Below, piece after piece: positions 6,564 to 55,432 of a DNA stretch of 64,000 nucleotides. Made by a program: the position numbers and the translations under genes. The number at the start of each line of letters is the position of its first letter. The first letter of the stretch is position 1. This DNA is from a virus, in the IMG/VR virus record IMGVR_UViG_3300050821_010968, positions 62,001 to 126,000 of that record. One strand, 5' to 3'. The notes beneath the pieces are model-generated. The model had not been told where the DNA came from and searched no databases. It saw nothing but the letters and a program-made list of their open reading frames with translations.

Positions 6564-9299
6564 ATGACCTATGATTATGAAGCTCGCGCGCACTCGCGAT
6601 CCGTTGTTCGCCAACTCAATACGCTTTCCAATGATGTGAAAATCTCACTGCAACGTGGCCTTATCATTCCGACTGAAGCTGAAAAACGTATTGTAGAACT
6701 TACAAAGACTACCGATCCTTCGCGTCAAGTGGATGTCTTGAGCATGATGGCGGAACGCGTTCAGTCGAGTCATCTGGCAAAATTGTTACCGCTCGCAAAG
6801 AATGAATTCAACGCGTTCTGTGAGTACGTTAATCCGGATGAACCACCGGAATCGAAATGGCATATCTGGCTGACCGATTTATTGCAGCGCGTTGAAACCG
6901 ATCCGAGTTATCAACGCATCGTATTAAACGTTCCTCCGGGTCATGCGAAACCTCTCATAGGATCGACCCTCGTCCTTATGCATGATGGTTCTTACAAACG
7001 TCTGGATCAAATCAAAGTTGGCAACAAAGTCATCACTCATAAAGGACGCGCACGGAAAGTCCTTGCAGTTCATCAGCAAGGTAAGCTTCCAGTTTTGAAG
7101 GTCGCTACGCGATTCAACCGCGAAATTATTGCTGCATCAGACCATCCGTTTCTGACTAACACGGAAAGAGACAATCCTTATAAGAATGCAGCCGATCTTA
7201 TGCCCGGCGACGAACTTGTTTTAGGCTCTCTAACGAAATCACGCGACCATAGTGGACATTCAATAGATGATTTTACGCTTGCAGCTTATTTCGGAGCGCA
7301 GGCTGGTCGCACATATTCTCCGAATCGCAAACGCACGCAGATGAATCGCAACGTGTTCCTCTACACGAACAATATGGCTGCACGCGATGATATGATGGCG
7401 CTCTTGAAGCGCATGGGGATTGAATGCTCAACATGGCGCTTGACAGCCGACAACGTCAGCTTCATCAAAATCTTCAAGAAACATGGCGATGAACTGGCTT
7501 CAAAATATCGTCTCGACGACCGTGCCAAAGATCGTGTCATCCCTGAATTTGTTTTTAAAGGCGACGATACGAAAATCAAGAAATTCATCTCGACATTCGT
7601 GAATATGCGTGGGGCGATCCTTCAAGGTCGTCCATATCCAAACCTGATCGTAAGTATACCGTCTCGTACATACGCGAAACAGTTACAATCTTTACTGGCT
7701 CGCTATGGTGTTGCGCCTGTGTATCGCGAAACTGGTGGTGATAAGATTCCTGCTGCTCAGCTTCGTTTTCTGCCTCGCCAGATCGAGGCATATATACAGC
7801 ACTTCACGTTCAGCGAACGCTTAGCGACACGCTTCACCGAGAAACGCAAACATGTAGAACCATTACCTCCCTTTGATGCAATTCATAGTGTGCTTCCAGC
7901 CGGTGAAGAAGAATGCTTTTGCTTGACGGTCGAGGAAGATTCAACGTTCGTTGCAAACGACGTGATCGTCCACAATTCGACTTACGCGTCTCGTCTATAT
8001 GTTGCGTGGCGTCTAGGACGACGACCGCGTGACAAAATTATCGGTGGTGGTCACTCACAGACATTCGTTGAAAACGAATTCTCAAAAAAGATTCGCGGAC
8101 TTGTTACCGGCAAAGCATATCACGATGTATTCCCCGAGATTGTAATTTCGAGCGACACCCGCGCTGCTGCGCAATGGGCGTTGGCAGGTACTGAAGGTCA
8201 GTATACTGCTAAAGGTGCTGGACAATCCGTACACGGATTTCGTGCGAACTTTGTTTGCGTTGACGATCCTTACGGTAAAATCGAAGACGCTGAATCACCA
8301 GCGATGCGTGAGAAAGTCAAGACATGGTTCTTCGGCGATCTCTGTTCGCGTTTGTTACCCGGTGCGACTGTGTTCGTGATTATGACTCGCTTCAACGAGC
8401 ACGATCTCACAGGCGAAATCATCGAAGCAAACAAACGACTCGCCGAGAACGCACGCTATAAAATCTTCGCGATTCCTGCAATATGTTATGATCCAGATAA
8501 CGATATGTTAAAAAGATCATTAGGTGAAGTTTTATGGGAATACTACAACCTAGCGCATTTCCAAACGTTCCGTGCAACCTGGAGTTTTGCCAGATTCTTT
8601 TTGGTCTTTCAGCAATCGCCGTCTGCTGCTGATGACACAAGCATTGCAAGTAAAATTAAATTCTATCGCACTGCGCCACATCTCACCGATGCAGCGATCC
8701 GAGATGCGAAAGACAAAAACTCCATTGATCCTGAAACAGGACGTGTACTGATTAATAAGCGAGATTACTATCGGCGTATTGTCGCGAGCGTTGATACGGC
8801 TTCCACCAAGACAGAACGATCAGACTACACGGTCGTGCAAATCTGGGGATTAGGTCACGATGGTAAGCATTATTTGCTCGATCAGGACCGAAAAAAGGTC
8901 GAATTCAATGACATGATCAGCACAATTGAGCGTCTTGCGCGCCTCTGGGAGGTCGATGCGATCCTCATCGAAGATAAGGGCGCTGGCAACTCTTACCTCC
9001 AACACAGAGGAGCGACGGACGGTCAGAAGCGAGCGGCACCGGCACCACTCGTCGCCATCAAGGTCAATCCGGCTCAAGGCAAAGAGTTCCGGTTCGACGA
9101 AATCAGCCCTCTCATCGAAGCAGGGGAAGTGTGGGTGCCGGAAGACGCATCATGGACTGAACTGTTCATGCAGGAACTGGGACAGTTCCCTGACGGCGCG
9201 CATGACGACCAAGTGGACGCCATGTCTCAAGCTCTCAAGTGGTTCAAAGGCAAACGTCGAGGCCGCTATGGCAGCCGCAAAGTGACGAGTATGGGCTAA
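6564..9299 (+). CDS. terL: Terminase large subunit interrupted by an intein
   Basis: The 911-residue precursor holds two extein parts. Residues 1-129 end in the Walker A loop VPPGHAK, and residues 472-911 continue it with STYASRLYVAW. Further ATPase motifs follow: VCVDDPYG (Walker B) and IMTRFNEHD (coupling motif). The RNase H-like nuclease domain shows VDTASTKTERSDYTVV, ILIEDKGAG and PDGAHDDQVDA, giving the expected acidic metal ligands. After splicing the enzyme would be about 569 residues, normal for a TerL that pumps and cuts DNA during head filling. It is followed by a perfect 13-bp hairpin at 9303-9345. Confidence 0.95.
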   Translation: MTYDYEARAHSRSVVRQLNTLSNDVKISLQRGLIIPTEAEKRIVELTKTTDPSRQVDVLSMMAERVQSSHLAKLLPLAKNEFNAFCEYVNPDEPPESKWHIWLTDLLQRVETDPSYQRIVLNVPPGHAKPLIGSTLVLMHDGSYKRLDQIKVGNKVITHKGRARKVLAVHQQGKLPVLKVATRFNREIIAASDHPFLTNTERDNPYKNAADLMPGDELVLGSLTKSRDHSGHSIDDFTLAAYFGAQAGRTYSPNRKRTQMNRNVFLYTNNMAARDDMMALLKRMGIECSTWRLTADNVSFIKIFKKHGDELASKYRLDDRAKDRVIPEFVFKGDDTKIKKFISTFVNMRGAILQGRPYPNLIVSIPSRTYAKQLQSLLARYGVAPVYRETGGDKIPAAQLRFLPRQIEAYIQHFTFSERLATRFTEKRKHVEPLPPFDAIHSVLPAGEEECFCLTVEEDSTFVANDVIVHNSTYASRLYVAWRLGRRPRDKIIGGGHSQTFVENEFSKKIRGLVTGKAYHDVFPEIVISSDTRAAAQWALAGTEGQYTAKGAGQSVHGFRANFVCVDDPYGKIEDAESPAMREKVKTWFFGDLCSRLLPGATVFVIMTRFNEHDLTGEIIEANKRLAENARYKIFAIPAICYDPDNDMLKRSLGEVLWEYYNLAHFQTFRATWSFARFFLVFQQSPSAADDTSIASKIKFYRTAPHLTDAAIRDAKDKNSIDPETGRVLINKRDYYRRIVASVDTASTKTERSDYTVVQIWGLGHDGKHYLLDQDRKKVEFNDMISTIERLARLWEVDAILIEDKGAGNSYLQHRGATDGQKRAAPAPLVAIKVNPAQGKEFRFDEISPLIEAGEVWVPEDASWTELFMQELGQFPDGAHDDQVDAMSQALKWFKGKRRGRYGSRKVTSMG
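6951..7976 (+). other. Intein in TerL Walker A loop with degenerate LAGLIDADG domain
   Basis: 342 in-frame residues lie exactly between GHAK and STYA. The N-terminal block reads PLIGSTLVLMHDG, so the first residue is proline rather than cysteine or serine. Block B contains AASDHPFLT with its histidine. Block F is ECFCLTVEEDSTFVAND with cysteine where most inteins have aspartate, and the end is VIVHN followed by serine. That combination resembles class 3 inteins, in which the block F cysteine starts splicing. The middle has two LAGLIDADG-like helices (FTLAAYFGAQAG and KKFISTFVNMRG) lacking the acidic residues, so the homing nuclease is probably dead. Confidence 0.9.
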
Positions 9300-9302
9300 T
9301 GA

Positions 9303-9345
9303 CCGATATAGCCTGCCTTAACCACTCTAAGACAGGCTATATCGG
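9303..9345 (+). terminator. Hairpin after terL
   Basis: Perfect 13-bp inverted repeat CCGATATAGCCTG / CAGGCTATATCGG separated by 17 bases, starting four bases after the terL stop. No T-tract follows, so it may be a weak terminator or an mRNA-stabilising hairpin. Confidence 0.6.
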
Positions 9346-9400
9346 GTCAAACATTGGCCGTTAACCATGTTTTTCGAGGTTTTCCGCGCTCGCGCAGGGG

Positions 9401-9448
9401 GCGTTAACCTTAAAGCCATTAACCTTAACGGCATTAATCCTAACGCCG
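9401..9448. repeat. TTAACCTTAACGG repeat cluster 1
   Basis: Three imperfect direct copies of GCGTTAACCTTAAAGCC / ATTAACCTTAACGGC / ATTAATCCTAACGCC. The same family recurs at 10150, 13590 and 15851. Confidence 0.75.
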
Positions 9449-9487
9449 ACATTGATCCCTTGCTCTTGCGTCTCATTCTCATGTGAA

Positions 9488-9516
9488 AAGTCACACTTTG
9501 GGGAATTTGTGACTCT
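9488..9516. repeat. GAGTCACA-type inverted repeat
   Basis: AAGTCACACTTTGGGG with AATTTGTGACTC on the other arm. One of a family of short palindromes scattered through 9-36 kb. Confidence 0.6.
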
Positions 9517-9650
9517 TCCTCCTAACCCATTGATTTCATTACCAAATTCCGAACTTGTCGGCATTCCCGACACATCGCCCAAATCGACCACTACATCTAG
9601 CTGCGTCAACTTGTCTCAAATTTGACAGCCGACAAACCGTGTAGCAGCCA

Positions 9651-9680
9651 AAGAGTCACACTCCCGGGAAAATGTGACTC
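9651..9680. repeat. GAGTCACA-type inverted repeat
   Basis: AGAGTCACACTCCCGGG with AAAATGTGACTC on the other arm, in the same intergenic region. Confidence 0.6.
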
Positions 9681-9730
9681 TCGATATGTCAAGCTGTTTG
9701 TAAGTCATTGATCGAGCAGGCATTTTCGTC

Positions 9731-9797
9731 CCATACCGTGCGCATGCATCTTTTTCGGCGCGCAATCCGTCCCATACCGTGCGCAGGCGCATTTTGG
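9731..9797. repeat. TACCGTGCGC repeats, first group
   Basis: Two copies of CCCATACCGTGCGCA about 40 bases apart, each followed by a GCGCATTTTGG or GCGCG element. Confidence 0.65.
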
Positions 9798-9922
9798 GGC
9801 TTGACCTCTGACCGAATCAGTCATAGAACCCGACACATCGACGACCACGAGCCCCGGCATCCCGCTCCCCCCGATCTGCCAAAGCCCTCGTCGATTTCAG
9901 GCGACGATCTCCTCCCGCCTAA

Positions 9923-9961
9923 CAACACCCGCGACCTCAGCCCCTCCGGTCGCGGGTGTTG
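9923..9961. terminator. GC-rich 14-bp hairpin
   Basis: Perfect inverted repeat CAACACCCGCGACC / GGTCGCGGGTGTTG around an 11-base loop, in non-coding DNA between repeat groups. It has the shape of a terminator but has no clear T-tract. Confidence 0.5.
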
Positions 9962-9969
9962 TCATATTC

Positions 9970-10110
9970 GGCCCTATACCGTGCGCGATTCCATTCCCTA
10001 CCGTGCGCTGAATCATTTTCTGGCGCGCTATATCGTGCGCAGGCGCATTTTGTGACGCGCGCCCATACCGTGCGCGGTTTCGTTCTATATCGTGCGCTCG
10101 ATCATTTTCT
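9970..10110. repeat. TACCGTGCGC repeats, second group
   Basis: Five copies of TACCGTGCGC or TATCGTGCGC, alternating with GCGCATTTTG or ATCATTTTCTGG spacers and GGCGCGC blocks. Periodicity is roughly 30-35 bases. Function unknown; a protein-binding array is possible. Confidence 0.7.
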
Positions 10111-10149
10111 GGGGCGCGCTCGCGATCCGGCGCGCAAATGCGACCATTA

Positions 10150-10255
10150 TTAACTTTTCCAAAATTAACCTTAACGCCGTTAACCTTAATGGATTTCCGG
10201 ACGGCGTTAACCTTAACGGCATTAAGGTTAACGGACTCGGGCGTGTCGTTAACCA
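10150..10255. repeat. TTAACCTTAACGG repeat cluster 2
   Basis: At least four copies, AAATTAACCTTAACGCC, GTTAACCTTAATGG, GCGTTAACCTTAACGGC and an inverted ATTAAGGTTAACGG, next to the end of the minus-strand gene at 10249. Confidence 0.75.
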
Positions 10256-10476
10256 ATTGTGAGAGGTCTTCTGCCGGGCGGCGGGACATAGACTCCAGCC
10301 TCAAACGTCGCGCATCTCTCGCCTTCTAACGGGCATACACATGAGCGCTCGCAATTCGCGAATTGCATGGAGAATGGCAGGCGTTCTGGCGGGTACTGAC
10401 AAAGCCCTAACGCCTCCGCTGGATCATCGTTCGACGCTAGGTCCGGATCAAACCATTTGCAGCGCCCGCATGTCAC
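10249..10476 (-). CDS. Cysteine-rich small protein, 75 aa
   Basis: Starts at 10476 with MTCGRCKWFD and overlaps the preceding minus gene by four bases. Six cysteines (CGRC, LCQYPP, NCERSCVCP, RCATF) in a pattern like the short phage proteins beginning CxxCkwf, probably zinc-binding. No function known. The two genes 10760-10473 and 10476-10249 form a small operon. Confidence 0.65.
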   Translation of the reverse strand: MTCGRCKWFDPDLASNDDPAEALGLCQYPPERLPFSMQFANCERSCVCPLEGERCATFEAGVYVPPPGRRPLTIG

Positions 10477-10760
10477 GCGCGGTATTCCGATTCCTTGATG
10501 CCCCGGAAGTAGGGGGCGAGTTCATTGTAGCGAAGCTTTGAACCCTTGTGCGCCACGGCGTCGGCGTTCTTGTCGTGGATCGACGCCTCTAGTTGATCGT
10601 CTTTGCGTGCGTGGCAGGGCACGAGGGCTACATAGGCCGCATAGAGGCCGGAGCTATCCTTCGTAAGAACTGCCATCAATTCCAATGCCGGGCGTTCCGT
10701 AATTGCTCCGGTTGAGTCGATGACAGGCAGGCCGGGAATGTAGGTTTTCACGATTTCCAT
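10473..10760 (-). CDS. Hypothetical protein, 95 aa
   Basis: ATG at 10760 preceded on its strand by ACAAAACAGGAGTCGAAC, the leader shared by nearly all genes of this region, and by TTGACA at 10818-10813. The product is a mixed protein with no recognised motif (PALELMAVLTKDSSGLYAAY). It is in an operon with the cysteine-rich gene downstream. Confidence 0.7.
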   Translation of the reverse strand: MEIVKTYIPGLPVIDSTGAITERPALELMAVLTKDSSGLYAAYVALVPCHARKDDQLEASIHDKNADAVAHKGSKLRYNELAPYFRGIKESEYRA

Positions 10761-10812
10761 GTTCGACTCCTGTTTTGTTTGTTGCCCCTCTTAGATCATG
10801 GCTTGTGATGGT

Positions 10813-10849
10813 TGTCAATCGGAAATTATTTGGCTTGCGTCGGTTGACA
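10813..10849. promoter_or_regulatory. Divergent promoter cassette A
   Basis: Minus-directed TTGACA (read as TGTCAA at 10813-10818) and plus-directed TTGACA at 10844-10849, 31 bases apart. Each is preceded on the plus strand by the same element, GGCTTGTGATGGT and GGCTTGCGTCGGT. The minus promoter serves 10760; no gene is seen for the plus one. Confidence 0.7.
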
Positions 10850-10865
10850 AAGAGGATTTTTTCGT

Positions 10866-10975
10866 GGTAGAAATTTTCCGAGGGTGATTTTCAATTTTGG
10901 AAATTTTTCTAAGCACGTTTTTACTGCGATGGAAATTTTCCTGAGCGTGTTTTGTTTTGACGGAAATTTAGCTAT
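10866..10975. repeat. Iteron-like AT-rich tandem repeats
   Basis: About three and a half copies of a 32-base unit, GGAAATTTTCCTGAGCGTG followed by a T-rich spacer. Copies read GAAATTTTCCGAGGGTG, GGAAATTTTTCTAAGCACG, GGAAATTTTCCTGAGCGTG and a truncated GGAAATTT. There is no gene here; the interval 10850-11047 is otherwise AT-rich non-coding DNA. Confidence 0.65.
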
Positions 10976-11047
10976 AACAAAAAATCGATTCTGGAATCAC
11001 CATGAGCATATAATAGTAGCTTAACCTTTATGCGACTAGCAGCCTTT

Positions 11048-11335
11048 TTAACTATTCACCGCCTCACGCACCCGGCGCAAATTCTCCGCCGCTGCCATCG
11101 CCGACTCTGCCATCCGTAGCGCCTGTAGCCTCTCACCGCGTCCCTGACAGGCTTGGGCCCTTATCCCACGTTCCCGCACTTGCCGGGTGAAAGTGTCAAT
11201 TAGGAACGCTATGAGCGGGTCACGCGCACGGGCGGCGACGGCTGCTTTATGCAGCGCCGCGCCGTGCGCGGTTGCTTGGGCCTCGAATCCGTTTATGATC
11301 GAGTTCCTAACAACGTCCGCGAGATTATTCGCCAT
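11048..11335 (-). CDS. Alanine-rich helical protein, 95 aa
   Basis: Start chosen at ATG 11335 because ACAGGAGTCGCT lies directly upstream and TTGACA stands at 11392-11387; the frame is open further upstream through the promoter. The product is almost entirely helical and rich in alanine and arginine (AAAENLRRVREAVNS at the end). No family recognised. Confidence 0.65.
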   Translation of the reverse strand: MANNLADVVRNSIINGFEAQATAHGAALHKAAVAARARDPLIAFLIDTFTRQVRERGIRAQACQGRGERLQALRMAESAMAAAENLRRVREAVNS

Positions 11336-11386
11336 AGCGACTCCTGTTTTGATTGTTGCCCCTCTTAGATCATGGCTCGCGTGGGT

Positions 11387-11422
11387 TGTCAATGCCAATT
11401 ATTTGGCTTTCGTGGGTTGACA
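11387..11422. promoter_or_regulatory. Divergent promoter cassette B
   Basis: TGTCAA at 11387 (minus-directed -35) and TTGACA at 11417 (plus-directed), preceded by GGCTCGCGTGGGT and GGCTTTCGTGGGT. Serves the genes starting at 11335 (minus) and 11476 (plus). Confidence 0.75.
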
Positions 11423-11475
11423 ATGCTTTTTCTTAGGCTTACAAAGGCTGCATAACAAACAAAGGAGTCGAGCAC

Positions 11476-11976
11476 ATGGGAAAGATGGTCTATATGCAAG
11501 ATACGGATGGAAGCGTCTTTAAAACGCTTCATCCGGAATATCATTCTGGCGCAAAGCGAATCAGTGAAGCCAAAGGCAAAAAAGTTAATGCCGAAAATGC
11601 GGCGGCGAAACTTCGCCAATACTTTAAGCCCGGTGATGTGGCCTTCACGGTTCTTAAATCGGTTTCTCGCAATGGCATGTCGCGGCATATCTCAGTTATC
11701 GCAACGGCCCGCGAGGAATCAAAAGACTATGATGGCAAGAAACGCGTTCAATATGTCCCGGTCAACGTGACTGGCCTTGTGGCGGACCTACTCGGCTACA
11801 AGTGGAATGATGATGGGTCGCTCACGGTTGGCGGCTGCGGAATGGACATGGGTTTTCACGTTGTTTATTCTATGTCCTCGCGCATGTTCCCTAATGGCAC
11901 GAAAAAACCTCACGGGCGACGGAATGGCGAGCCTGACACAGCCGGAGGGTATGCGATTAGGCATCGTTGGCTCTAA
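11476..11976 (+). CDS. Phage protein with GCGMDMGF motif, 166 aa
   Basis: ATG 11476 follows CAAAGGAGTCGAGCAC. Residues 50-70 read KPGDVAFTVLKSVSRNGMSR and residues 115-130 GGCGMDMGFHVVYSMSSRMF. These two blocks recur together in a family of uncharacterised phage proteins, and conservation of glycine, cysteine and aspartate suggests an active or metal site. Function is unknown. It has its own promoter (cassette B) and no close downstream gene on the same strand. Confidence 0.75.
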   Translation: MGKMVYMQDTDGSVFKTLHPEYHSGAKRISEAKGKKVNAENAAAKLRQYFKPGDVAFTVLKSVSRNGMSRHISVIATAREESKDYDGKKRVQYVPVNVTGLVADLLGYKWNDDGSLTVGGCGMDMGFHVVYSMSSRMFPNGTKKPHGRRNGEPDTAGGYAIRHRWL

Positions 11977-12053
11977 GCGGTGTTTGTGAGGTGGACATAA
12001 CGTCCACCTCACCAATTCCTAATAGGCGTAAAGGTTAAAGCCTTCTGAAAAGC

Positions 12054-12108
12054 GGAGGGGCAGGGAATCGAACCGCGCCTGCGCATCACCGGCACCGCCC
12101 GGCCCTCC
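12054..12108 (-). other. tRNA-like hairpin at the end of a minus operon
   Basis: Read on the minus strand, GGAGGGC pairs with CCCCTCC at the other end and the interior includes the T-arm-like GGTTCGATTCCC. It begins directly after the stop codon of the gene ending at 12109 and is followed by GCTTTTC, so it may act as a terminator. It is too short (55 nt) and imperfect for a tRNA. Confidence 0.35.
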
Positions 12109-12324
12109 TCACTGAAACGCTGAATCGTCGTATGCGTTCACGTCCGGTTCATCGTTAATCGATCCTTTCGCGAAAATCGCCACGTCGCCCGGTGCAATCT
12201 CTTGCTTGGCGCGCACATCCCAACGGCGATGTACAAAGTCCGGCTTTCCGAACACGCGCACGGCTTTGTTATACGCCACGTCCGCCCCGATATTGGGATG
12301 AATGAATCCAACGAAGTGCATCAT
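12109..12324 (-). CDS. Hypothetical protein, 71 aa
   Basis: ATG at 12324 overlaps the stop of the gene upstream by four bases. Sequence includes AKQEIAPGDVAIFAKGSIND, likely a small beta fold. No family recognised. Second gene of a two-gene minus operon. Confidence 0.6.
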   Translation of the reverse strand: MMHFVGFIHPNIGADVAYNKAVRVFGKPDFVHRRWDVRAKQEIAPGDVAIFAKGSINDEPDVNAYDDSAFQ

Positions 12325-12560
12325 GACGGAAACCTCAATCCGAATCGTTCAATCAGGATATCGCGCACCCGTTCACGATCAATGGAGTCGCCATCACCCC
12401 ATGTCGCGCCGGGCATTTGACCACTCGCAAGCCCTACGAGATAAGTGTGAGTCGCTTCCGCTATTTGTGCGCCTGTCGCACCCATATCGTATACGCCCTC
12501 AATCCCGTAAAATGTGTGAACGTATTTGTGGAATTGTTTCATGCTAGTGAGGGTTGTCAT
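12321..12560 (-). CDS. Hypothetical protein, 79 aa
   Basis: ATG 12560 follows ACAGGAGTCGAGC and the TTGACA at 12618-12613. The body is helical, with TGAQIAEATHTYLVGLASGQ and a C-terminal DRERVRDILIERFGL helix. No family recognised. Expressed divergently from the gene at 12703. Confidence 0.65.
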   Translation of the reverse strand: MTTLTSMKQFHKYVHTFYGIEGVYDMGATGAQIAEATHTYLVGLASGQMPGATWGDGDSIDRERVRDILIERFGLRFPS

Positions 12561-12612
12561 GCTCGACTCCTGTTTTGATTGTTGCCCCTTTTAGATCATG
12601 GCTTGCGGCGGT

Positions 12613-12649
12613 TGTCAATAGAAAATATTTTGGCTTTTAGGGGTTGACA
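12613..12649. promoter_or_regulatory. Divergent promoter cassette C
   Basis: TGTCAA at 12613 and TTGACA at 12644, preceded by GGCTTGCGGCGGT and GGCTTTTAGGGGT. Serves the genes at 12560 (minus) and 12703 (plus). Confidence 0.75.
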
Positions 12650-12702
12650 ATAAATTCACGTCCGGCTAGAACATGCCCACAACAAAACAAGGAGTCGAGC
12701 AC

Positions 12703-13470
12703 ATGGAAAAATTGAGCATCAATATCCCGTTTAGCGGATTCTATGAATCATTCTACTCGGAAGCAATCGATAGTGAACTGGAAAGCCTCGCCGAAAATTA
12801 CGCGGAGGAAGATAAGAATTCCCTCGCGAAGGAACTCCGGCTTACGGCGGGCGAATTCGGCGAAGTGATTAGCGTCAATCTCAATTACGAAGTTGCCTGC
12901 CAGAACGTCGCGAAAACTTACGTTGACGTTTTTAGCCGTCAATGGGGCGAAACAATCGGAGTCGAGCTTGGACTCGAATTCGAGGAAATGACTTCACCGA
13001 AAGAGTACAACTTCGCAACCGACAGAATTTTCTGCCTCATATCGGCCCGCGCAGTCCGGAAGTTGTTTGCGAAGTCGCGTAAAGATAACCACGTCATGCT
13101 CGCGACAATAATCCGCAAGCGCCACACGTCTTATGATGGCTTCATTTCGTTCTATACCAACGAACTGGAATCATGGCTTGCGAAGCCGGTGATTAAATGG
13201 GATGCGAACGAACTCGCGACTCTTTTAATTGCAGTTCACAAACTTTCGCCAGACTATGACTCCGAGTGGAAAATGGGAGTCTATTATGGCGTGACGGATG
13301 ACGGTCTCATGGGGGAAGTTGATCCGGCAATTGACTGGAACAAACTTGCGGCGGACATTGGCGAGCTACACGCGGACAAAGAGGCGGAGTTGCATGAACT
13401 CGATCCGTCATATATTGCACCTGCCAAGCGTTGCAGCGATACGTTAGACCTGTTCAGAGAGGGCAGATAA
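12703..13470 (+). CDS. Hypothetical phage protein, 255 aa
   Basis: Start chosen at ATG 12703, preceded by AACAAGGAGTCGAGCAC; the open frame extends ten codons further but into the leader. It opens with INIPFSGFYESFYSEAID, a beginning shared by a family of uncharacterised phage proteins, and is acidic throughout, with a C-terminal half containing FISFYTNELESWL and GELHADKEAELHEL. Followed by a strong terminator at 13525. Function unknown; one of the larger proteins of this accessory region. Confidence 0.75.
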   Translation: MEKLSINIPFSGFYESFYSEAIDSELESLAENYAEEDKNSLAKELRLTAGEFGEVISVNLNYEVACQNVAKTYVDVFSRQWGETIGVELGLEFEEMTSPKEYNFATDRIFCLISARAVRKLFAKSRKDNHVMLATIIRKRHTSYDGFISFYTNELESWLAKPVIKWDANELATLLIAVHKLSPDYDSEWKMGVYYGVTDDGLMGEVDPAIDWNKLAADIGELHADKEAELHELDPSYIAPAKRCSDTLDLFREGR

Positions 13471-13524
13471 TTTTCGAGGTGCACGGCTCGACTCCCGCGC
13501 AAGCGGTTGCCCTGTACCTAACTT

Positions 13525-13560
13525 CGCCGGATGGGCTAACAATCCATCCGGCGACTTTTT
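13525..13560 (+). terminator. Intrinsic terminator
   Basis: CGCCGGATGG / CCATCCGGCG stem with a nine-base loop, followed by ACTTTTT. It lies 55 bases after the stop of the gene ending at 13470. Confidence 0.85.
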
Positions 13561-13589
13561 CACTTGTCAGATTTTCCGACTGTATATGT

Positions 13590-13650
13590 CATTAACCTTT
13601 AAGCCGTTAAGGTTAACGCGCCGCCGCGCTGGACACACGCGGCGTTAACC
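13590..13650. repeat. TTAACCTTAACGG repeat cluster 3
   Basis: ATTAACCTTTAAGCCG followed by inverted GTTAAGGTTAACGCG and a later GCGTTAACC. The 450-base stretch 13471-13928 holds this, a terminator and a divergent promoter; no supported gene. Confidence 0.6.
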
Positions 13651-13839
13651 ATCCGCCGCAAGCGCCGGTACGGGTTGGTTACCGCTTTCCTACGCGCTCG
13701 CCCGGACTTTGCGAGCGCGACTCTTCTTGCTCTTGCCTACGGGACTTGCCGCGTGAGTAGCGTTCCCGGCTAACGGCGTGACTTAGATCATGGTTGCACC
13801 TCCAAACTGTTGCGTGTTTGTAAAATGGCTTGCGTCCGT

Positions 13840-13874
13840 TGTCAATAGAAAAATTTGGCTTTCGTGGGTTGACA
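13840..13874. promoter_or_regulatory. Divergent promoter cassette D
   Basis: TGTCAA at 13840 and TTGACA at 13869 with GGCTTGCGTCCGT and GGCTTTCGTGGGT in front. The plus arm serves 13929. On the minus side a ribosome-like GGAGG precedes ATGATCTAA, so only a two-codon frame; a minus gene is not supported. Confidence 0.7.
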
Positions 13875-13928
13875 ATGAAAATTCTTTGATTTACAAACGA
13901 CCCCACAAACAAAACAGGAGTCGCACAT

Positions 13929-14552
13929 ATGAGCAAACAGTTTAGGAACTTCGATTCGTCCAAACGCGAGCAACGCGTCTATATCGAATTTGAACGCGAG
14001 ATACTCGTGGACGAATCTCCGGACTTGTCGTACCTCGAACAGGATTATGTGGGCGTCACGCCCGCATCCGAACGCGACAAGTACATTGAGCAGGACAAAG
14101 AACGCCTTGCCGCGTACAATCGCCGCGATTGGCATATGGTCGGCGTGCGCGTGGTCGCGCACATTCTCGTTCCCATTGGCGGCAAATCGTTTCGCATGTT
14201 TGACATTGCGAGCGCTGGCTTGTGGGGAATCGAATCGGAGATGGGCGAAGATTATTTCGCGGAAGTTGAGGCGGAGGAAAAATCCGAACTCATTTCCAAT
14301 ATCAAGAAAATGGGCGAAGCGTTCGCTAATTTGGACGATGAAGGCAATCCGCTTCCGTCGCATGATCCTGATGAACCTATCATTGCGGATGATGGACGCC
14401 ATGTCCGACACGATGCCATGGGCTTTTATCTACTTGAACCCGAAGAATGCGAGCACGAAGATGCTGGCAACAATTCTGTCGGCTTCGACGGTCGCCCGCA
14501 TTATGAAACGATACAACTCGCGCTTGATGCAGTGCGCATGGGTGACGTATGA
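13929..14552 (+). CDS. Acidic hypothetical protein, 207 aa
   Basis: ATG 13929 follows ACAGGAGTCGCACAT. Strongly charged and acidic, with VRVVAHILVPIGGKSFRMFD as a likely beta core and a helical segment ISNIKKMGEAFANLDDEGNP. Family not recognised. Its stop overlaps the next start (ATGA), beginning a three-gene coupled operon. Confidence 0.7.
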   Translation: MSKQFRNFDSSKREQRVYIEFEREILVDESPDLSYLEQDYVGVTPASERDKYIEQDKERLAAYNRRDWHMVGVRVVAHILVPIGGKSFRMFDIASAGLWGIESEMGEDYFAEVEAEEKSELISNIKKMGEAFANLDDEGNPLPSHDPDEPIIADDGRHVRHDAMGFYLLEPEECEHEDAGNNSVGFDGRPHYETIQLALDAVRMGDV

Positions 14553-14827
14553 GCGCGTCCGTGTATACGCTAGGCTCGGGCCGCACGATCCTGAAAAACG
14601 GCGTCCCGGTCGCTTACATTCAGCGCACGGGCAATTCATCGGACGGTCACGCCTTGACGCCCGCTGAAGCCGACGCGCTGGCGCATGAGGTTGTCAACGC
14701 ATTATCACTTGCGGCACAAGTGATTCGCGTGGCGCGGATCGTAGAGGAAGACGAATCGATGGACGCCGATATGATCGTGGCGCTCATCGGCGAATTGCGC
14801 GACGTTGCTGAAGGAAGTGACGCATGA
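14549..14827 (+). CDS. Hypothetical protein, 92 aa
   Basis: ATG overlaps the upstream stop. The N-terminal half reads as beta strands (GRTILKNGVPVAYIQRTG), the C-terminal half as amphipathic helices with TPAEADALAHEVVNALSLAA. This arrangement recurs in small phage proteins but has no named function. The stop overlaps the next start. Confidence 0.65.
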   Translation: MSASVYTLGSGRTILKNGVPVAYIQRTGNSSDGHALTPAEADALAHEVVNALSLAAQVIRVARIVEEDESMDADMIVALIGELRDVAEGSDA

Positions 14828-15006
14828 CCCTTGACCCGCTCCTAGAAAGCTATGGGCGAATGCGCACTTCAAACATGCGCCCTAGCGCTCGCCAAGCCGT
14901 GCAAGCCGTCGCCCTCGAAACCAGTAACCGGGAATTGCGACTCGCAATCCGGTTACTGCAAGAGCACTTGAGGGCACGCACTTCATCGGATGCAAGGGCC
15001 GGATAA
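14824..15006 (+). CDS. Small helical protein, 60 aa
   Basis: ATG overlaps the upstream stop (ATGA). Helical and arginine-rich: RQAVQAVALETSNRELRLAI, then LLQEHLRARTSSDARAG. Possibly a short coiled coil. No family recognised. Third gene of the coupled operon. Confidence 0.6.
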   Translation: MTLDPLLESYGRMRTSNMRPSARQAVQAVALETSNRELRLAIRLLQEHLRARTSSDARAG

Positions 15007-15018
15007 TGTCACGGAAAA

Positions 15019-15047
15019 AGAGTCACAAATTCCCTAAACTGTGACTC
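15019..15047. repeat. GAGTCACA-type inverted repeat
   Basis: AGAGTCACAAATTCCC with AACTGTGACTC on the other arm, located just after the stop at 15006; a half-site GAGTCACATTTTC lies 35 bases further on. A terminator or operator role is possible. Confidence 0.6.
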
Positions 15048-15116
15048 GTCAACTCAATAGGGACGGCCTTAAATCGACGCGAGTCACATTTTCACCCATG
15101 AAAGGAAAGGCACATA

Positions 15117-15251
15117 ATGCACAACGGCGGACACAGCCACGGCGCGCACGGCGGACACATGCACGGCGGAATCATCTTGCTCTTAGAGGTGCTATTCCTG
15201 CGGCGTCATCCGTGGATAATGGGCCTCATATTTTTGATGCTGCTTAAATGA
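15117..15251 (+). CDS. Histidine-rich membrane micropeptide, 44 aa
   Basis: ATG 15117 follows GAAAGGAAAGGCACATA. The first 17 residues hold six histidines and six glycines (MHNGGHSHGAHGGHMHGG), a classic metal-binding run. The rest consists of two hydrophobic segments, IILLLEVLFL and WIMGLIFLMLL, split by RRHP, so the peptide may insert as a hairpin. It could bind Ni, Zn or Cu at the membrane, as inference. Stop at 15249-15251, just before the next promoter. Confidence 0.65.
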   Translation: MHNGGHSHGAHGGHMHGGIILLLEVLFLRRHPWIMGLIFLMLLK

Positions 15252-15267
15252 ACTTGGCTTGCGGGGG

Positions 15268-15296
15268 TTGACAATAAACCCCCGTTTTGCTATCCA
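15268..15296 (+). promoter_or_regulatory. Single-direction promoter of the GGCTTGCG family
   Basis: GGCTTGCGGGGGTTGACAAT, the plus-directed half of the cassette found at 11387-13874, without its divergent partner. Serves the gene at 15324. Confidence 0.7.
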
Positions 15297-15323
15297 CAAT
15301 CCGAACAAAAACAGGAGTCAAAC

Positions 15324-15767
15324 ATGAAACACACAACCGACCACATGGCTGCAATCAAAAGCGGCACGATTACGAAAACCAACGTAATCGGATTGCGTAA
15401 AATCCTGAATGCCAGCAAGCGGCGCTATCTGGGATACTCGGTTAGCTCAACCGCCCCGAATTACACGCCTGCGGAAGTTGACGCGCTGGAAAACGCGCTA
15501 GAGCGCCACAAGCCGCGTGTGACGGGCGAGCTTCACGCGTCCGGCCTCAAGCTCTTGCAATCGCCGCGCTACCGCAAGCGCCTCGCGGACGTGCAAGCCA
15601 TCATCGCCAAGCTGGACTCGTTCCGCCTCGTGCGCTTTGATCGTATTGGCAACCGCGAGGAAAATGCGGTGCCGGTCTACAAGGCTTGCGCTGGGCGCAA
15701 ATCCTTCACGTTCCGTAATATCCCGTGGCAATCGGGCGGCAACGGGCCGGAGATTGTCGAGGCCTAA
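15324..15767 (+). CDS. Hypothetical protein, 147 aa
   Basis: ATG 15324 follows ACAAAAACAGGAGTCAAAC. Basic protein with TNVIGLRKILNASKRRYLGY near the start and a KSFTFRNIPWQSGGNGPEIV end. Probably alpha-beta; family not recognised. It is followed by the TACCGTGCGC and TTAACC repeats. Confidence 0.65.
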   Translation: MKHTTDHMAAIKSGTITKTNVIGLRKILNASKRRYLGYSVSSTAPNYTPAEVDALENALERHKPRVTGELHASGLKLLQSPRYRKRLADVQAIIAKLDSFRLVRFDRIGNREENAVPVYKACAGRKSFTFRNIPWQSGGNGPEIVEA

Positions 15768-15768
15768 G

Positions 15769-15830
15769 CATACCGTGCGAGCGCGTATTCTGTACCTTGC
15801 GCGCTCGCATTTTTTGGAGCGCTCGCACGA
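15769..15830. repeat. TACCGTGCGC repeats, third group
   Basis: CATACCGTGCGAGCGCG then TGTACCTTGCGCGCTCG and a GGAGCGCTCGC element, variants of the family at 9731-10110, directly after the gene ending at 15767. Confidence 0.55.
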
Positions 15831-15850
15831 TCCGGCGCGCATCGATTAAT

Positions 15851-15938
15851 CGCCGTTAACCATCCGGCGCGAATCGGTTAACGCGCGTTAACCTTGATGG
15901 CGTTAACCTTAACGGTTTCGCCCGTGCCGTTAACCATG
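15851..15938. repeat. TTAACCTTAACGG repeat cluster 4
   Basis: CGCCGTTAACCATCC, GCGCGTTAACCTTGATGG, CGTTAACCTTAACGG and GCCGTTAACCATG in 88 bases between convergent genes. Confidence 0.65.
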
Positions 15939-15994
15939 TCGGAAAATGTGACAAGCGAAGGCGCGGATCGTGACCGACCCGCGCCGCGCTCGAT

Positions 15995-16219
15995 TCAGTG
16001 TTGCGACATGCCGGAGAATCGCGGGTGTTCATCGCACCAAGCTTGCGCTTGCGCCTCGGTTTCAAATGGCGGGCGGGCGAGTCCTGTCGTTCCGTCCGGG
16101 TGCTGAACTGTCCATCCCTCTTGCTTGAGAATCGAGCCGGGCGGGATGAAGCTGGAAAACATAGAGACGCGCTTCCCTTGCGGCGTCAAATAAAAACGAT
16201 ACGGGATAGGGTTAGACAT
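15995..16219 (-). CDS. Hypothetical protein, 74 aa
   Basis: ATG 16219 follows AGGAGTCGATC. Contains YRFYLTPQGKRVSMFSSF and PPFETEAQAQAWCDEHPRF, the latter like the end of a small SPOR-like or uncharacterised phage fold. Third gene of the minus operon 16612-15995. Confidence 0.6.
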   Translation of the reverse strand: MSNPIPYRFYLTPQGKRVSMFSSFIPPGSILKQEGWTVQHPDGTTGLARPPFETEAQAQAWCDEHPRFSGMSQH

Positions 16220-16246
16220 GATCGACTCCTATAGCTAGATTCAGCG

Positions 16247-16483
16247 TTAGACGTGCTTCACGAAAATTTCGGCAGTCAGTCCGAGCATGTCCACAAGGTA
16301 AGTCTTTTCGGTTTCAGCGGTGAGGCGTGAACCATATGCGGCCCATAGTGTCCAAGCGCCGTCGCGCAGGATATGAACGCCATAAAGCGGAGGTGATATA
16401 CGATTCCCGTGTTTTACTAACTGAACGAAACGGAATTCTTTGCAACGTCCGCATTCACATGTCGCCGTTTTGAGAGTGCACAT
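16247..16483 (-). CDS. Small protein with CECGRC motif, 78 aa
   Basis: ATG 16483 follows AGGAGTCAATC. N-terminal CTLKTATCECGRCKEF may bind zinc. The middle reads GVHILRDGAWTLWAAYGSRL. Second gene of the minus operon. Function unknown. Confidence 0.6.
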   Translation of the reverse strand: MCTLKTATCECGRCKEFRFVQLVKHGNRISPPLYGVHILRDGAWTLWAAYGSRLTAETEKTYLVDMLGLTAEIFVKHV

Positions 16484-16492
16484 GATTGACTC

Positions 16493-16612
16493 CTATAGGT
16501 TGCTATTCCAGAAAAACCAGTCGGATGCGTTGCCTTCAGCTTTCACATCGTTTTTAAAACGACCTGCAAGCCATATGCACCTACCTAATTCGCGAAATTT
16601 CATCTTAGACAT
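16493..16612 (-). CDS. Micropeptide, 39 aa
   Basis: From ATG 16612, preceded by CGGAGTCGATC, to TAG at 16495-16493. Sequence starts MSKMKFRELGRCIWLAGRF and ends FFWNSNL; basic and aromatic. It is the promoter-proximal gene of the three-gene minus operon, with TTGACA at 16669-16664. Leader and spacing match the neighbouring real genes, which is the main support. Confidence 0.55.
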   Translation of the reverse strand: MSKMKFRELGRCIWLAGRFKNDVKAEGNASDWFFWNSNL

Positions 16613-16663
16613 GATCGACTCCGTTTTTGTTTGTGACTACCTTAGAGCATGGCTTGCGTTAGT

Positions 16664-16669
16664 TGTCAA
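16664..16669 (-). promoter_or_regulatory. Minus-directed promoter of the GGCTTGCG family
   Basis: TTGACA on the minus strand (TGTCAA at 16664), preceded on the plus strand by GGCTTGCGTTAGT. The plus-directed partner is missing. Serves the minus operon starting at 16612. Confidence 0.65.
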
Positions 16670-16710
16670 ACGAAAAAACGCGATTTACCTAATATTAAGC
16701 ACGAATTTAA

Positions 16711-16740
16711 GAGTCACATTTTTCGTTCAAAATGTGACTC
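16711..16740. repeat. GAGTCACA inverted repeat
   Basis: GAGTCACATTTTTCG with CAAAATGTGACTC on the other arm, immediately before GACTTTTCCGAATAACGC and about 70 bases upstream of the gene at 16809. Confidence 0.65.
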
Positions 16741-16808
16741 GACTTTTCCGAATAACGCGCTTAGGCTCTTATCACGTTGCAATGATGCAGCGATAGCAGG
16801 AGTCGAAA

Positions 16809-17222
16809 ATGCAAAGTCAAGCAATCGTGATTCTCCCGACAAAGAATAACGCGGGCGAATCTCTGGCATGTGAACTTACCAACTTTCGCCGCGTCCTCAT
16901 GAATCAATTCGGCGCGGAATGTTTCTCGGAAGAAACCGAGCGTGGCAAATGGAAGAATCACGAAGTCGTGTATAACGATATTGCCATCCGCTTCACGATC
17001 CTAGCGGACTGGGATATGCGCCTGTCGCCCAAGCGGGAAAAGACTTTAGCCGATAGGCTGGAATCGATTGCCGCCGATGCTTGCCGCGCTTTCGATCAAG
17101 AGGCGGTTTTCGTGCGGCACGGCAACGGGCAAGTCATATATGCACATCCCGCCGACGCCGCACCGCCGCAAAGCGTACGCCTCACATGGGCGCAACGCAT
17201 TGAGCAATCCGAAGCAGCCTAA
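16809..17222 (+). CDS. Hypothetical protein, 137 aa
   Basis: ATG 16809 follows GCAGGAGTCGAAA. Begins with QAIVILPTKNNAGESLACEL and contains the helix KTLADRLESIAADACRAFDQ followed by a strand AVFVRHGNGQVIYAH. Similar in outline to phage proteins thought to be small regulators, but no family recognised. Confidence 0.65.
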   Translation: MQSQAIVILPTKNNAGESLACELTNFRRVLMNQFGAECFSEETERGKWKNHEVVYNDIAIRFTILADWDMRLSPKREKTLADRLESIAADACRAFDQEAVFVRHGNGQVIYAHPADAAPPQSVRLTWAQRIEQSEAA

Positions 17223-17262
17223 CCCCAACGGGCGCGAGCCCACAACTGAAGGAGTCATCACC

Positions 17263-17394
17263 ATGAAATATGCAATCGCTTACATCCTCTCCGGAATGCT
17301 CGCAATCTCCCCCGCTTATGCACGCGGTCACGCGACCGGCAATCACGGTCATCATGCCAAGACGTTGGCATTGCCACACGTTAGCGCGTGGTAA
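17263..17394 (+). CDS. Secreted histidine-rich micropeptide, 43 aa
   Basis: ATG 17263 follows GAAGGAGTCATCACC. The first 20 residues (MKYAIAYILSGMLAISPAYA) form a typical signal peptide ending in an AYA cleavage site. The mature part of about 23 residues has five histidines (RGHATGNHGHHAKTLALPHV). Export to the periplasm with possible metal binding is inferred. It pairs conceptually with the histidine-rich membrane peptide at 15117. Confidence 0.65.
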   Translation: MKYAIAYILSGMLAISPAYARGHATGNHGHHAKTLALPHVSAW

Positions 17395-17414
17395 CTATTC
17401 ATTAACTACGAAGC

Positions 17415-17450
17415 AAAGAGTCACAATATCATATGATATTGTGACTCTTT
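17415..17450. repeat. Perfect 36-bp palindrome
   Basis: AAAGAGTCACAATATCAT on one arm and its exact complement on the other with no loop. It sits after the stop at 17394 and is followed seven bases later by a TTGACT box, so it may end one transcript and/or bind a regulator of the next. Confidence 0.8.
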
Positions 17451-17528
17451 GCGCTTGACTCGCTTTGTCGTTTGGCTTTAAGGTTTACGCATAGCCGCAA
17501 GCAAGCGGCGCAACCAAAGGAGTCGAAT

Positions 17529-17879
17529 ATGTCTATTGCTCGCCACACTCGCCAAAGCGTTGCAAATCATAGCGCGCTCATTCTCACCTTCATCGGTCAA
17601 GCCGTTGAGCAAGGCTGCATTGTGGACAAACACGCGCTTTACCTCGCGGACTTGGCGTACAAAAAAGCTGAACGTTGGATAGCCGTACCCACCGAGGCTG
17701 TAAGGCGCGACCTGCGCGCGTTGCTTGCCAGCATCGTGGAAACCGTTGACGCATCCGAGATGCGCGGCGACATGATGCTGAAAGCGTTTGCGCAAGCGTT
17801 GTATGACTACTCCGAGTGCTATTACACGAAGGCTAATCGTCGCCTGTATGCGATAGGGCGCACGCTCGGGCGCGCATAG
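17529..17879 (+). CDS. Helical hypothetical protein, 116 aa
   Basis: Start chosen at ATG 17529 after CAAAGGAGTCGAAT; the frame is open upstream through the leader. All-helical, basic: ARHTRQSVANHSALILTFIG, ALYLADLAYKKAERWIAV, AVRRDLRALLASIVETVD. No family recognised. A strong terminator follows at 17901. Confidence 0.65.
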   Translation: MSIARHTRQSVANHSALILTFIGQAVEQGCIVDKHALYLADLAYKKAERWIAVPTEAVRRDLRALLASIVETVDASEMRGDMMLKAFAQALYDYSECYYTKANRRLYAIGRTLGRA

Positions 17880-17900
17880 TCGTTACGTCTCGCATGAAAC

Positions 17901-17930
17901 AAAGGCCGCGCAATCGCGCGGCCTTTTTGT
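17901..17930 (+). terminator. Intrinsic terminator
   Basis: AAAGGCCGCGC / GCGCGGCCTTTTT with a short loop, followed by GTTTTG. Confidence 0.85.
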
Positions 17931-17964
17931 TTTGTAGTTGTGAACTGTTTGTTTACTATCTGCT

Positions 17965-17995
17965 AAGAGTCACATTTTAATTCGAGAATGTGACT
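17965..17995. repeat. GAGTCACA inverted repeat beside a -35 box
   Basis: AGAGTCACATTTTAATTCG with GAATGTGACTT on the other arm, overlapping the start of TTGACT, the likely -35 box for the gene at 18054. Confidence 0.65.
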
Positions 17996-18053
17996 TGACT
18001 TCGTTACGTTGATATGCTCATATTCACATCACAAACAAACAACGGAGTCGATT

Positions 18054-18254
18054 ATGTCCTACATCGTAGTCAATGACAAAAGAGCCGCCGCAATGATCGA
18101 GCGCAACGCAAACGTGCTGCGCGCGCAAGCGATACGCCAAGCGCACGCCGCGACGCGCCCGCACTTTATTAAGGCTCATGCGTCCCTACTGGCCGGGGGT
18201 GCGGGCATTGGATTGCTTTTGAGCCTTGCGGCGATGCTCTTTGGCATTGTTTAA
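18054..18254 (+). CDS. Small tail-anchored membrane protein, 66 aa
   Basis: ATG 18054 follows AACGGAGTCGATT. A basic helical N-terminal part (IERNANVLRAQAIRQAH) is followed by one hydrophobic segment at residues 47-66 (GGAGIGLLLSLAAMLFGIV). Probably inserted in the inner membrane by its C-terminus. Function unknown. Followed at 18260-18298 by GTTAACG / CGTTAAC arms that could form a hairpin. Confidence 0.6.
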   Translation: MSYIVVNDKRAAAMIERNANVLRAQAIRQAHAATRPHFIKAHASLLAGGAGIGLLLSLAAMLFGIV

Positions 18255-18470
18255 GAATTGTTAACGGGGATGGGACCCAAGGCCCTCCTCGTTAACCATT
18301 TTTCGCGCGGCACCATCCGACGTGTGCGGATTGAATTGAAAATTAATCAGTGCACAGATTAAAAAAAAAAAAGAGGTCGGGGACCCGGTAGAAAACATGA
18401 TCGATCTAAAAATAGGCCTATACCTGAAAAATTGATTCACAATTTTTAGGGAAAATGATCCGTATACTGA

Positions 18471-18728
18471 CTATTTGGATTTGATCTCATTACTATGTTC
18501 GTCGAGCTTCGGCATCACAAGCGCTTCAACGGTTAAAACTAATTCATCTATAATAGTACCAGCATAACGCATACAACGCGCCAGCGCAGCCGCATCAGCC
18601 TTTGAAATGGTCACGGATGTCTTCGACATGGCATTGACGATATCTAAACGGTGAGCCAGCAACACCAGCGTAGCGGCTCCTTCAATGATCTCTATAGGGC
18701 TGCGTGTCGTATCGGCAGAATGCCTCAT
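18471..18728 (-). CDS. Helical hypothetical protein, 85 aa
   Basis: Starts at ATG 18728. Helical with a conserved-looking serine-rich centre (NAMSKTSVTISKADAAALAR) and the end TVEALVMPKLDEHSNEIKSK. No family recognised. The 215 bases before it (18255-18470) are non-coding and include a run of twelve A. Confidence 0.55.
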   Translation of the reverse strand: MRHSADTTRSPIEIIEGAATLVLLAHRLDIVNAMSKTSVTISKADAAALARCMRYAGTIIDELVLTVEALVMPKLDEHSNEIKSK

Positions 18729-19002
18729 CCGAATCCTTTAAGTTGAAAGCTCGATCCTGACACACTGTCCCATCTCGTCAACGATTCCAAAACAAAGCGC
18801 CGCCCGAGAGTCACTCGGACGGCGCTATCCAATATACGACAAAAGGTTTCTATAAGGTGGGTATGGGGTTTGTTATCCTGCCGAGAGCGCCTCCTTTGTT
18901 CGTTAAACCGACTTTGGAACCACACAGATGACGAACTCTACGCCTAATTCCTCAGCCTTGTCAAGGGTCTGTCGAAGCCTCCGACAGGTGATTCTGGAAT
19001 TC

Positions 19003-19031
19003 TTGACACCATCCTAGAACCATGAGACACA
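19003..19031 (+). promoter_or_regulatory. Promoter of the portal operon
   Basis: GGAATTCTTGACA at 19003-19008, 17-base spacer, then GACACA, a weak -10. The GGAATTC/CTTGAC beginning recurs at 38878, 57974 and 63692. Confidence 0.55.
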
Positions 19032-19050
19032 GCTTCGTCGGCTTATTTTA

Positions 19051-19107
19051 TGTCTGAAGCCGATCTCCTTATGGCAACTGGCAGCGGCTAAGGTCGCTGC
19101 CCCTTTT
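19051..19107 (+). terminator. Leader peptide plus hairpin upstream of portal
   Basis: A 13-codon frame (MSEADLLMATGSG) ends inside the 5-prime arm of GGCAGCG / CGCTGCC, which is followed by CCTTTTCTTT. It lies between the promoter at 19003 and the portal start, so it may attenuate the operon. Interpretation is inference. Confidence 0.5.
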
Positions 19108-19134
19108 CTTTGCCGAAGGCATAATAGGAATCAC

Positions 19135-55413: not shown

Positions 55414-55432
55414 TGTCGTCTCCTGATTAAAT

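Follow-up and report, generated by a model that had tools for sequence, protein, structure and literature searches.

A repeated asymmetric element on predicted divergent promoters in the post-terminase region of a phiCbK-like phage

In the phage represented by the virus record IMGVR_UViG_3300050821_010968 (156,272 bp; hereafter the contig), one short sequence recurs before genes located between the large terminase gene (TerL, 6564-9299) and the portal gene (19135-21030). Why is this element repeated, and what reads it? The stretch of DNA that was analyzed (the window, 64,000 nt) corresponds to contig bases 62001-126000, and positions are those of the window unless they are marked as contig positions. 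A preliminary description had proposed that a cassette recurs at 10813-16669, in which the central base of TTGWCAA (W = A or T) would set the direction of a -35 box, and that a common regulator acts on it. As described below, the cassette is present in multiple copies, the element is predicted to carry sigma70-type promoters, and on balance we favor the view that these are duplicated early promoters of a phiCbK-like phage under a common regulator, probably a repressor.

The repeated element and its predicted promoters

The extended consensus of the element, TGGCTNNCGNGGGTTGWCAAT, is asymmetric and 19-21 bp long. When the window was searched for GGCTTNCGNGGGTTGWCAA, allowing up to three mismatches, 10 matches were obtained, all of them on the plus strand and within 10800-16669, vs 0.30 expected from shuffled sequences (largest value 2), which confirmed that the repeated cassette is real. 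Only the copies at 11405, 13857 and 15256 fitted the quoted consensus exactly, and the remainder carried 1-2 mismatches. Eight of the ten copies form four divergent pairs (10800/10832, 11374/11405, 12600/12632 and 13827/13857), with starts 30-32 bp apart and not 29-31 bases as described before; the coordinates given previously mark the TTGTCAA core, not the starts of the elements (10800, 11374, 12600 and 13827). As had been claimed, the core of the upstream copy has T and that of the downstream copy has A in all four pairs, and across the contig this pattern was found four times, whereas a reversed-pattern control was not found at all. The two single halves were also borne out, at 15256 (A) and 16651 (T).

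A matrix scan over the contig pieces, with zero background matches above 15 bits, located about 10 further copies, outside the window (contig positions 6597-, 8999-, 11761-, 19200+, 20498+, 23081+, 26300-, 28982+, 60657- and 129627+). These dispersed copies precede other genes, including an ArdC-like anti-restriction gene, so that the element is not limited to the accessory region, as was first thought. Over 20 sites, 12 are oriented one way and 8 the other way.

TTGWCAA is palindromic except for its central position, and therefore one element can carry a -35 box on either strand. A TTGACA -35 was present in every copy, read in the direction set by W, and a -10 box (TAnnnn or TCTAAG) was observed 17 nt after it in nearly all copies (those at contig 19200+ and 129627+ are imperfect). 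The copies thus have the features of sigma70-type promoters (TTGACA, a 16-18 nt spacer and a TA-type -10), with imperfect TCTAAG boxes in the class that carries the flank of the element in the spacer. For 16 of the 20 sites the predicted direction has a start codon 52-62 nt from the -35, compared with one of the 20 for the opposite direction and 1.5% of random positions; five start codons had been added or corrected manually before the sites were counted. This is the result expected if the central base sets the direction, as the preliminary description had it. From their sequence, then, the elements are predicted sigma70-type promoters whose -35 is the TTGWCAA end of the element, and the four tandem pairs are predicted to be overlapping divergent promoters. 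Among the called genes of the contig, 17 were preceded by a TTGACA-N16-18-TA promoter, and 10 of these promoters carry the element and an 11th (7377-) a degenerate copy; the remaining promoters are found at 48 kb and within the structural half. The gene calls, made with a home-made caller, are approximate, and at least one gene (GcrA) was missed. A consensus promoter scanner did not single out the element promoters, because their -10 boxes are weak. A sigma54 promoter (TGGC at -24, TTGC at -12) was discarded, since the element has TTGW in place of TTGC and a spacing 2 bp longer.

In the first pair, the W = T copy (10800..10818, promoter on the minus strand) has its -35 TTGACA at 10818-10813 and a -10 TCTAAG at 10795-10790, and would serve the ATG at 10760, 58 nt away, and no convincing plus-strand gene follows the W = A copy (10832..10850, plus strand, -35 at 10844-10849), which is an orphan arm. 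In the second pair, the W = T copy (11374..11392, minus) is 57 nt from a minus-strand gene start at 11335, and the W = A copy (11405..11423, plus; -35 at 11417-11422, -10 TACAAA at 11440-11445) is 59 nt from the start at 11476. The third pair is composed of a W = T copy (12600..12618, minus), with minus-strand genes from 12560 (58 nt), and a W = A copy (12632..12650, plus; -35 at 12644-12649, -10 TAGAAC at 12667-12672), with a start at 12703 (59 nt). The W = T copy of the fourth pair (13827..13845, minus) is another orphan arm, with no minus-strand gene and a displaced remnant, TTAGATCATGG, near 13784; its W = A partner (13857..13875, plus; -35 at 13869-13874, -10 TACAAA at 13892-13897) precedes the start at 13929 by 60 nt. 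The single W = A copy (15256..15274, plus) has a -10 TATCCA at 15291-15296 and a start at 15324 (56 nt), and the single W = T copy (16651..16669, minus) precedes a three-gene minus-strand operon, the first gene of which is a ~39-aa open reading frame (ORF) at about 16612.

The flank as a candidate operator

The flank GGCTNNCGNGGG is conserved both upstream of the -35 (class A, W = A) and inside the spacer (class B, W = T). At the seven dispersed class A sites the upstream sequence outside the element had 0.44 bits per column (chance 0.37), whereas the 12-bp flank had 1.28 and the core 2.0. The class B flanks ranked in the top 0.004-0.03% of the contig 12-mers under the class A matrix, and the three dispersed class B flanks in the top 0.03% under a matrix made from the dispersed class A sites alone. 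The flank is kept at dispersed sites amid surroundings at chance level, and therefore its conservation is not just a result of shared duplication; being independent of promoter geometry and of the surrounding sequence, it fits a protein-binding site. An operator for a protein, laid over the -35, would hence fit better than an extended promoter, and the regulator is probably a repressor, because the site covers the -35 in both classes and the -35 is already consensus. In this view a DNA-binding regulator, which is most likely a repressor, would use the element as its operator and cover the -35 in either orientation, and there may be cooperation between two bound copies, whose distance is about three helical turns. 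The cassette genes would be transcribed early, by host sigma70 RNA polymerase, and the four divergent units would derive from duplication, with the cargo genes gained and lost later. We infer the regulator, its timing and its binding. The common regulator of the preliminary description is thus plausible, with the flank kept at both positions and at dispersed sites with unrelated surroundings, although no regulator was found.

An asymmetric repeat in promoters and intergenic spaces is also known from the operators/stoperators of Cluster A mycobacteriophages, where it is bound by a repressor (PMC9283540). The orientation of those stoperators follows transcription, and its reversal leads to a loss of repression, whereas here both orientations occur (12 and 8 sites), i.e., no fixed orientation to transcription was found, and every site is promoter-like.

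Several points weigh against the favored explanation. In a Pfam scan of 123 called proteins no strong DNA-binding regulator was among the 25 families listed of 38, HTH_3 gave no match in the contig search, and the contig is incomplete. The motif search in related phages that had been suggested was run, and it did not turn up the element above chance level in any other phage or genome: its pattern gave four scattered single matches in viral_contigs, taken as chance, and no pair; the strict consensus gave four scattered matches in unrelated taxa of genome_contigs, near chance; and the element was absent from the relatives identified by the portal protein (12 and 8, obtained with alignment queries, a single sequence as query having given nothing). 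Two arms, the plus arm of unit 1 (10832) and the minus arm of unit 4 (13827), lack a gene, and contig sites 26300- and 129627+ have no suitably spaced start on the predicted side. The element matrix was first built from the window sites, so that counts near the region are not independent, the dispersed sites and the start-codon distances being the more independent tests. Finally, the early expression of the cassette genes and a terminal repeat over this region are predicted from synteny only. A near-identity DNA search among phages gave no match, and the leader pattern described below gave 25 single matches in viral_contigs, without a second copy or a cargo homolog, which were taken as chance. 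Among the candidates tried, an XRE/TgrL-type regulator was rejected for want of an HTH_3 match, and PraR because its consensus, TTGCAA (PMC4149787), differs from TTGWCAA. An HTH_38 match (contig 55317-55436, inside a 422-aa frame) was below the cut-off; since an IS1 transposase was among the families of the Pfam scan, though not mapped to the same protein, the match was regarded as a likely transposase.

The alternative that survives best is that there is no special regulator, and that duplicated strong, unregulated promoters of host type retain the flank through recency or promoter strength. The four cassettes are clearly homologous, their near perfect -35 boxes would need no activator, and the regulator search was without result. 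However, the dispersed copies retain the flank while their surroundings are at chance, and promoter strength does not explain why the same sequence is found upstream of the -35 or in the spacer, so that we consider this explanation unlikely.

Still less probable, in our opinion, is a host regulator that takes the place of CtrA and binds the element, so that the phage reads a different host state. CtrA binds and activates phiCbK promoters, and a deferment of the lytic cycle was proposed (PMC9437464); in Caulobacter and Brevundimonas phages the corresponding genes are preceded by CtrA boxes, and none is found here. Over the 8.1 kb of the CcrRogue repeat that were examined, a 29-nt CtrA-box promoter element is present nine times, with an exact TTAA-N7-TTAA in six. 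In the upstream regions read, CtrA boxes were observed before most of the 21 listed Bajun genes, and also before about 16 of 24 Colossus genes and many of 40 Marchewka genes. In the region 9300-19134 no TTAA-N7-TTAA was found, and CtrA itself was discarded as the controller. The strict scan of genome_contigs, with its four near-chance matches, argues against a known host regulon that carries the element.

We regard as improbable that the element is the recognition site of a phage-specific activator or of a modified RNA polymerase. Most TTGACA promoters of the non-structural half carry the element and their -10 boxes are weak, which speaks for such a factor, but the flank is upstream of the -35 in class A and in the spacer in class B, which is beyond the contact of one polymerase, and the -35 is already consensus.

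Leader, cassettes and cargo genes

Within 20 nt of the start codon, GGAGTC was found in 10 of 12 called genes at contig 71.3-81 kb, vs 1 of 194 elsewhere. The shared leader described previously is real, but its common core is AGGAGTC and not the full ACAAAACAGGAGTCG, and it is also found in genes without the element; it characterizes the region and does not depend on the element. GGAGTC also occurs in the leaders of Bajun and of the IMG/VR contig L028, so that the leader may be older than the present element. As in the start-associated sequences of Cluster K mycobacteriophages (PMC3203893), a conserved AGGAG-containing stretch is located just before non-structural start codons; here, however, the sequence is different, it is in part coupled to a promoter element, and the ESAS inverted repeat is absent.

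The leader GGAGTC contains GANTC, and each of the 15 genes examined carries GANTC in the 85 nt before its start (19 sites, 4.5 expected), mostly 8-11 nt before the start codon. A GcrA homolog is encoded on the contig (E=3.9e-26), and also in Rogue, Bajun, Marchewka and MD18; an excess of GANTC was observed in the cassettes of Lacusarx and MD18, and not in Rogue, Colossus and Marchewka. In GcrA/CcrM-type promoters GANTC lies between -35 and -10, an arrangement not found here. Hence, control mainly by the leader, with the GAGTC of AGGAGTC as a site that CcrM methylates and GcrA reads, the element being secondary, is very improbable despite the GANTC count and the GcrA homolog, since the site is at about +12 in the Shine-Dalgarno sequence, an N6/N4 methyltransferase (PF01555) was not found in the contig, and the element would be left unexplained. 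The gene of the GcrA homolog (contig G000:C1:9126-9596, L086, outside the window) adjoins a dispersed element site, and TTGACC with GAATC in the spacer is found upstream of it. In L028 (4356-4554) there are GANTC-rich tandem 16-nt repeats of ACGCGAGTCGGTTTTGAC.

Homology among the divergent units is seen in families of 54-93 nt, at 60-87% identity. Copy 1 (10755..10850) belongs to a 93-nt family with copies 2 (11331..11475) and 3 (12556..12702), at 68-84% identity, and the minus arm of copy 4 (13775..13928) is degenerate. The cargo genes are unrelated to one another, and their nearest relatives are in different phages. On the minus strand, two ORFs of 95 aa (10473..10760 and 11048..11335) gave no family match, the 79-aa ORF (12321..12560; phrog_7799) has its nearest relatives in cyanophages, and the 71-aa ORF (12109..12324), second gene of the same minus unit, had no match. 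On the plus strand, the 166-aa ORF (11476..11976; phrog_12365) has homologs in CcrRogue (gp011) and Lacusarx (gp092) and its nearest relatives in Achromobacter, Caulobacter, Sphingobium and Gordonia phages; the 255-aa ORF (12703..13470) has weak relatives in Curvibacter, Bacteroides and Acinetobacter phages; and no function was assigned to the ORFs of 207 aa (13929..14552) and 147 aa (15324..15767). From the sequences, this pattern fits a duplication of a promoter unit, after which genes would have been gained and lost.

In the PeSL promoter-stem-loop cassettes of T4-like phages (Arbiol 2010, cited in PMC4503421), promoter units likewise recur between accessory genes that are unrelated; in the present cassettes a consistent stem-loop was not evident in each copy, and the promoters are divergent. 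A terminator-like hairpin (13524..13554, plus strand) follows the gene at 12703-13470, and a stem-loop read directly between convergent genes (11987..12011, TGAGGTGGAC-ATAAC-GTCCACCTCA) has no clear T run. Hairpins follow some genes only, and their excess over shuffled sequences is modest (21 vs 13.7, sd 3.8).

Other repeats were observed in the region. At 10851-11024, which follows the orphan plus promoter, GGAAATTTTCC recurs in imperfect, AT-rich copies that may represent a decayed gene or a non-coding RNA. The palindrome AGTCACA-N12/14-TGTGACT is present six times (9489, 9654, 15021, 16712, 17419 and 17968) and not in the other contig pieces; several copies are 50-80 nt ahead of genes that lack the main element, and the palindrome is perhaps a second promoter-associated operator. 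Repeats of the TTAACCTTAACG type are found at 9404-10233, 13592 and 15888, and also close to the left end in CcrRogue, Bajun and Lacusarx, and ACCGTGCGC..GCGCATTTT repeats (families D6 and D8) in the non-coding 9720-10130 and 15769-15841.

Corresponding cassettes in related phages

Identity to phiCbK-like phages is 57-58% for the portal protein and 79-80% for the major capsid protein, and in a tree of the latter protein the phage falls inside the Dolichocephalovirinae clade with a support of 98/97, its position among the members being unsettled. TerL carries an intein domain (Pfam PF14890), and the TerL proteins of Bajun and L028 align over its full length, so that the insertion may be shared. 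The direct terminal repeat of phiCbK starts inside TerL and is ~10 kb long (PMC3556154). The product of the gene at 11476+ is 60% identical over 67 aa to CcrRogue gp011, which is annotated in the repeat, and its Lacusarx homolog is likewise in the post-terminase region; the similarity of 16809+ to CcrRogue gp017 is weaker (31%). In CcrRogue a CtrA box stands before the homolog of 11476+, the gene that in this phage has the new element in front.

The promoters of this phage resemble the CtrA-box promoters of CcrRogue, Bajun, Colossus and Marchewka (PMC9437464) in that they follow TerL, are repeated before many small genes and carry a regulatory box; at least one gene is homologous, and the AGGAGTC-type leader is common with Bajun. 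They differ in the element, in the TTGACA -35 that replaces the CtrA box and in the divergent copies. Other sequences are repeated at the corresponding position in Lacusarx (CCAGAAGAAAAGGCC-TTGACGAATC), in MD18 (GGCTTGAAGCG..CGAATCTG) and in L028 (TerL 49% identical), where GTGTCTCTAGGCGA..CCTAGGCTGAA is ahead of AGATGGAGTC; these cassettes are alike in per-gene layout and position, and L028 also in the GGAGTC leader, but their sequences are unrelated. Since the repeated per-gene promoters are common and the element is not, the architecture is shared and the control element is lineage-specific. CtrA control may have been lost in this lineage or gained in the others.

Phages of the phiCbK type are a leading example of lytic phages whose left-end genes heed a host cell-cycle regulator, CtrA (PMC9437464). 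We tentatively propose that the left-arm genes of this phage group all run from copied cassettes whose regulatory half may be swapped as a set when lineages split, the present version being a direction-neutral operator in which a single base picks the -35 strand. If this is true, the whole arm would change its controller at once (CtrA in the Caulobacter and Brevundimonas phages, others elsewhere). A close relative with the same architecture and a different element suggests an exchangeable controller, and provides a sequence handle for finding the new one. With five unrelated cassettes at the corresponding position, the set-wise replacement of promoters becomes a testable question.

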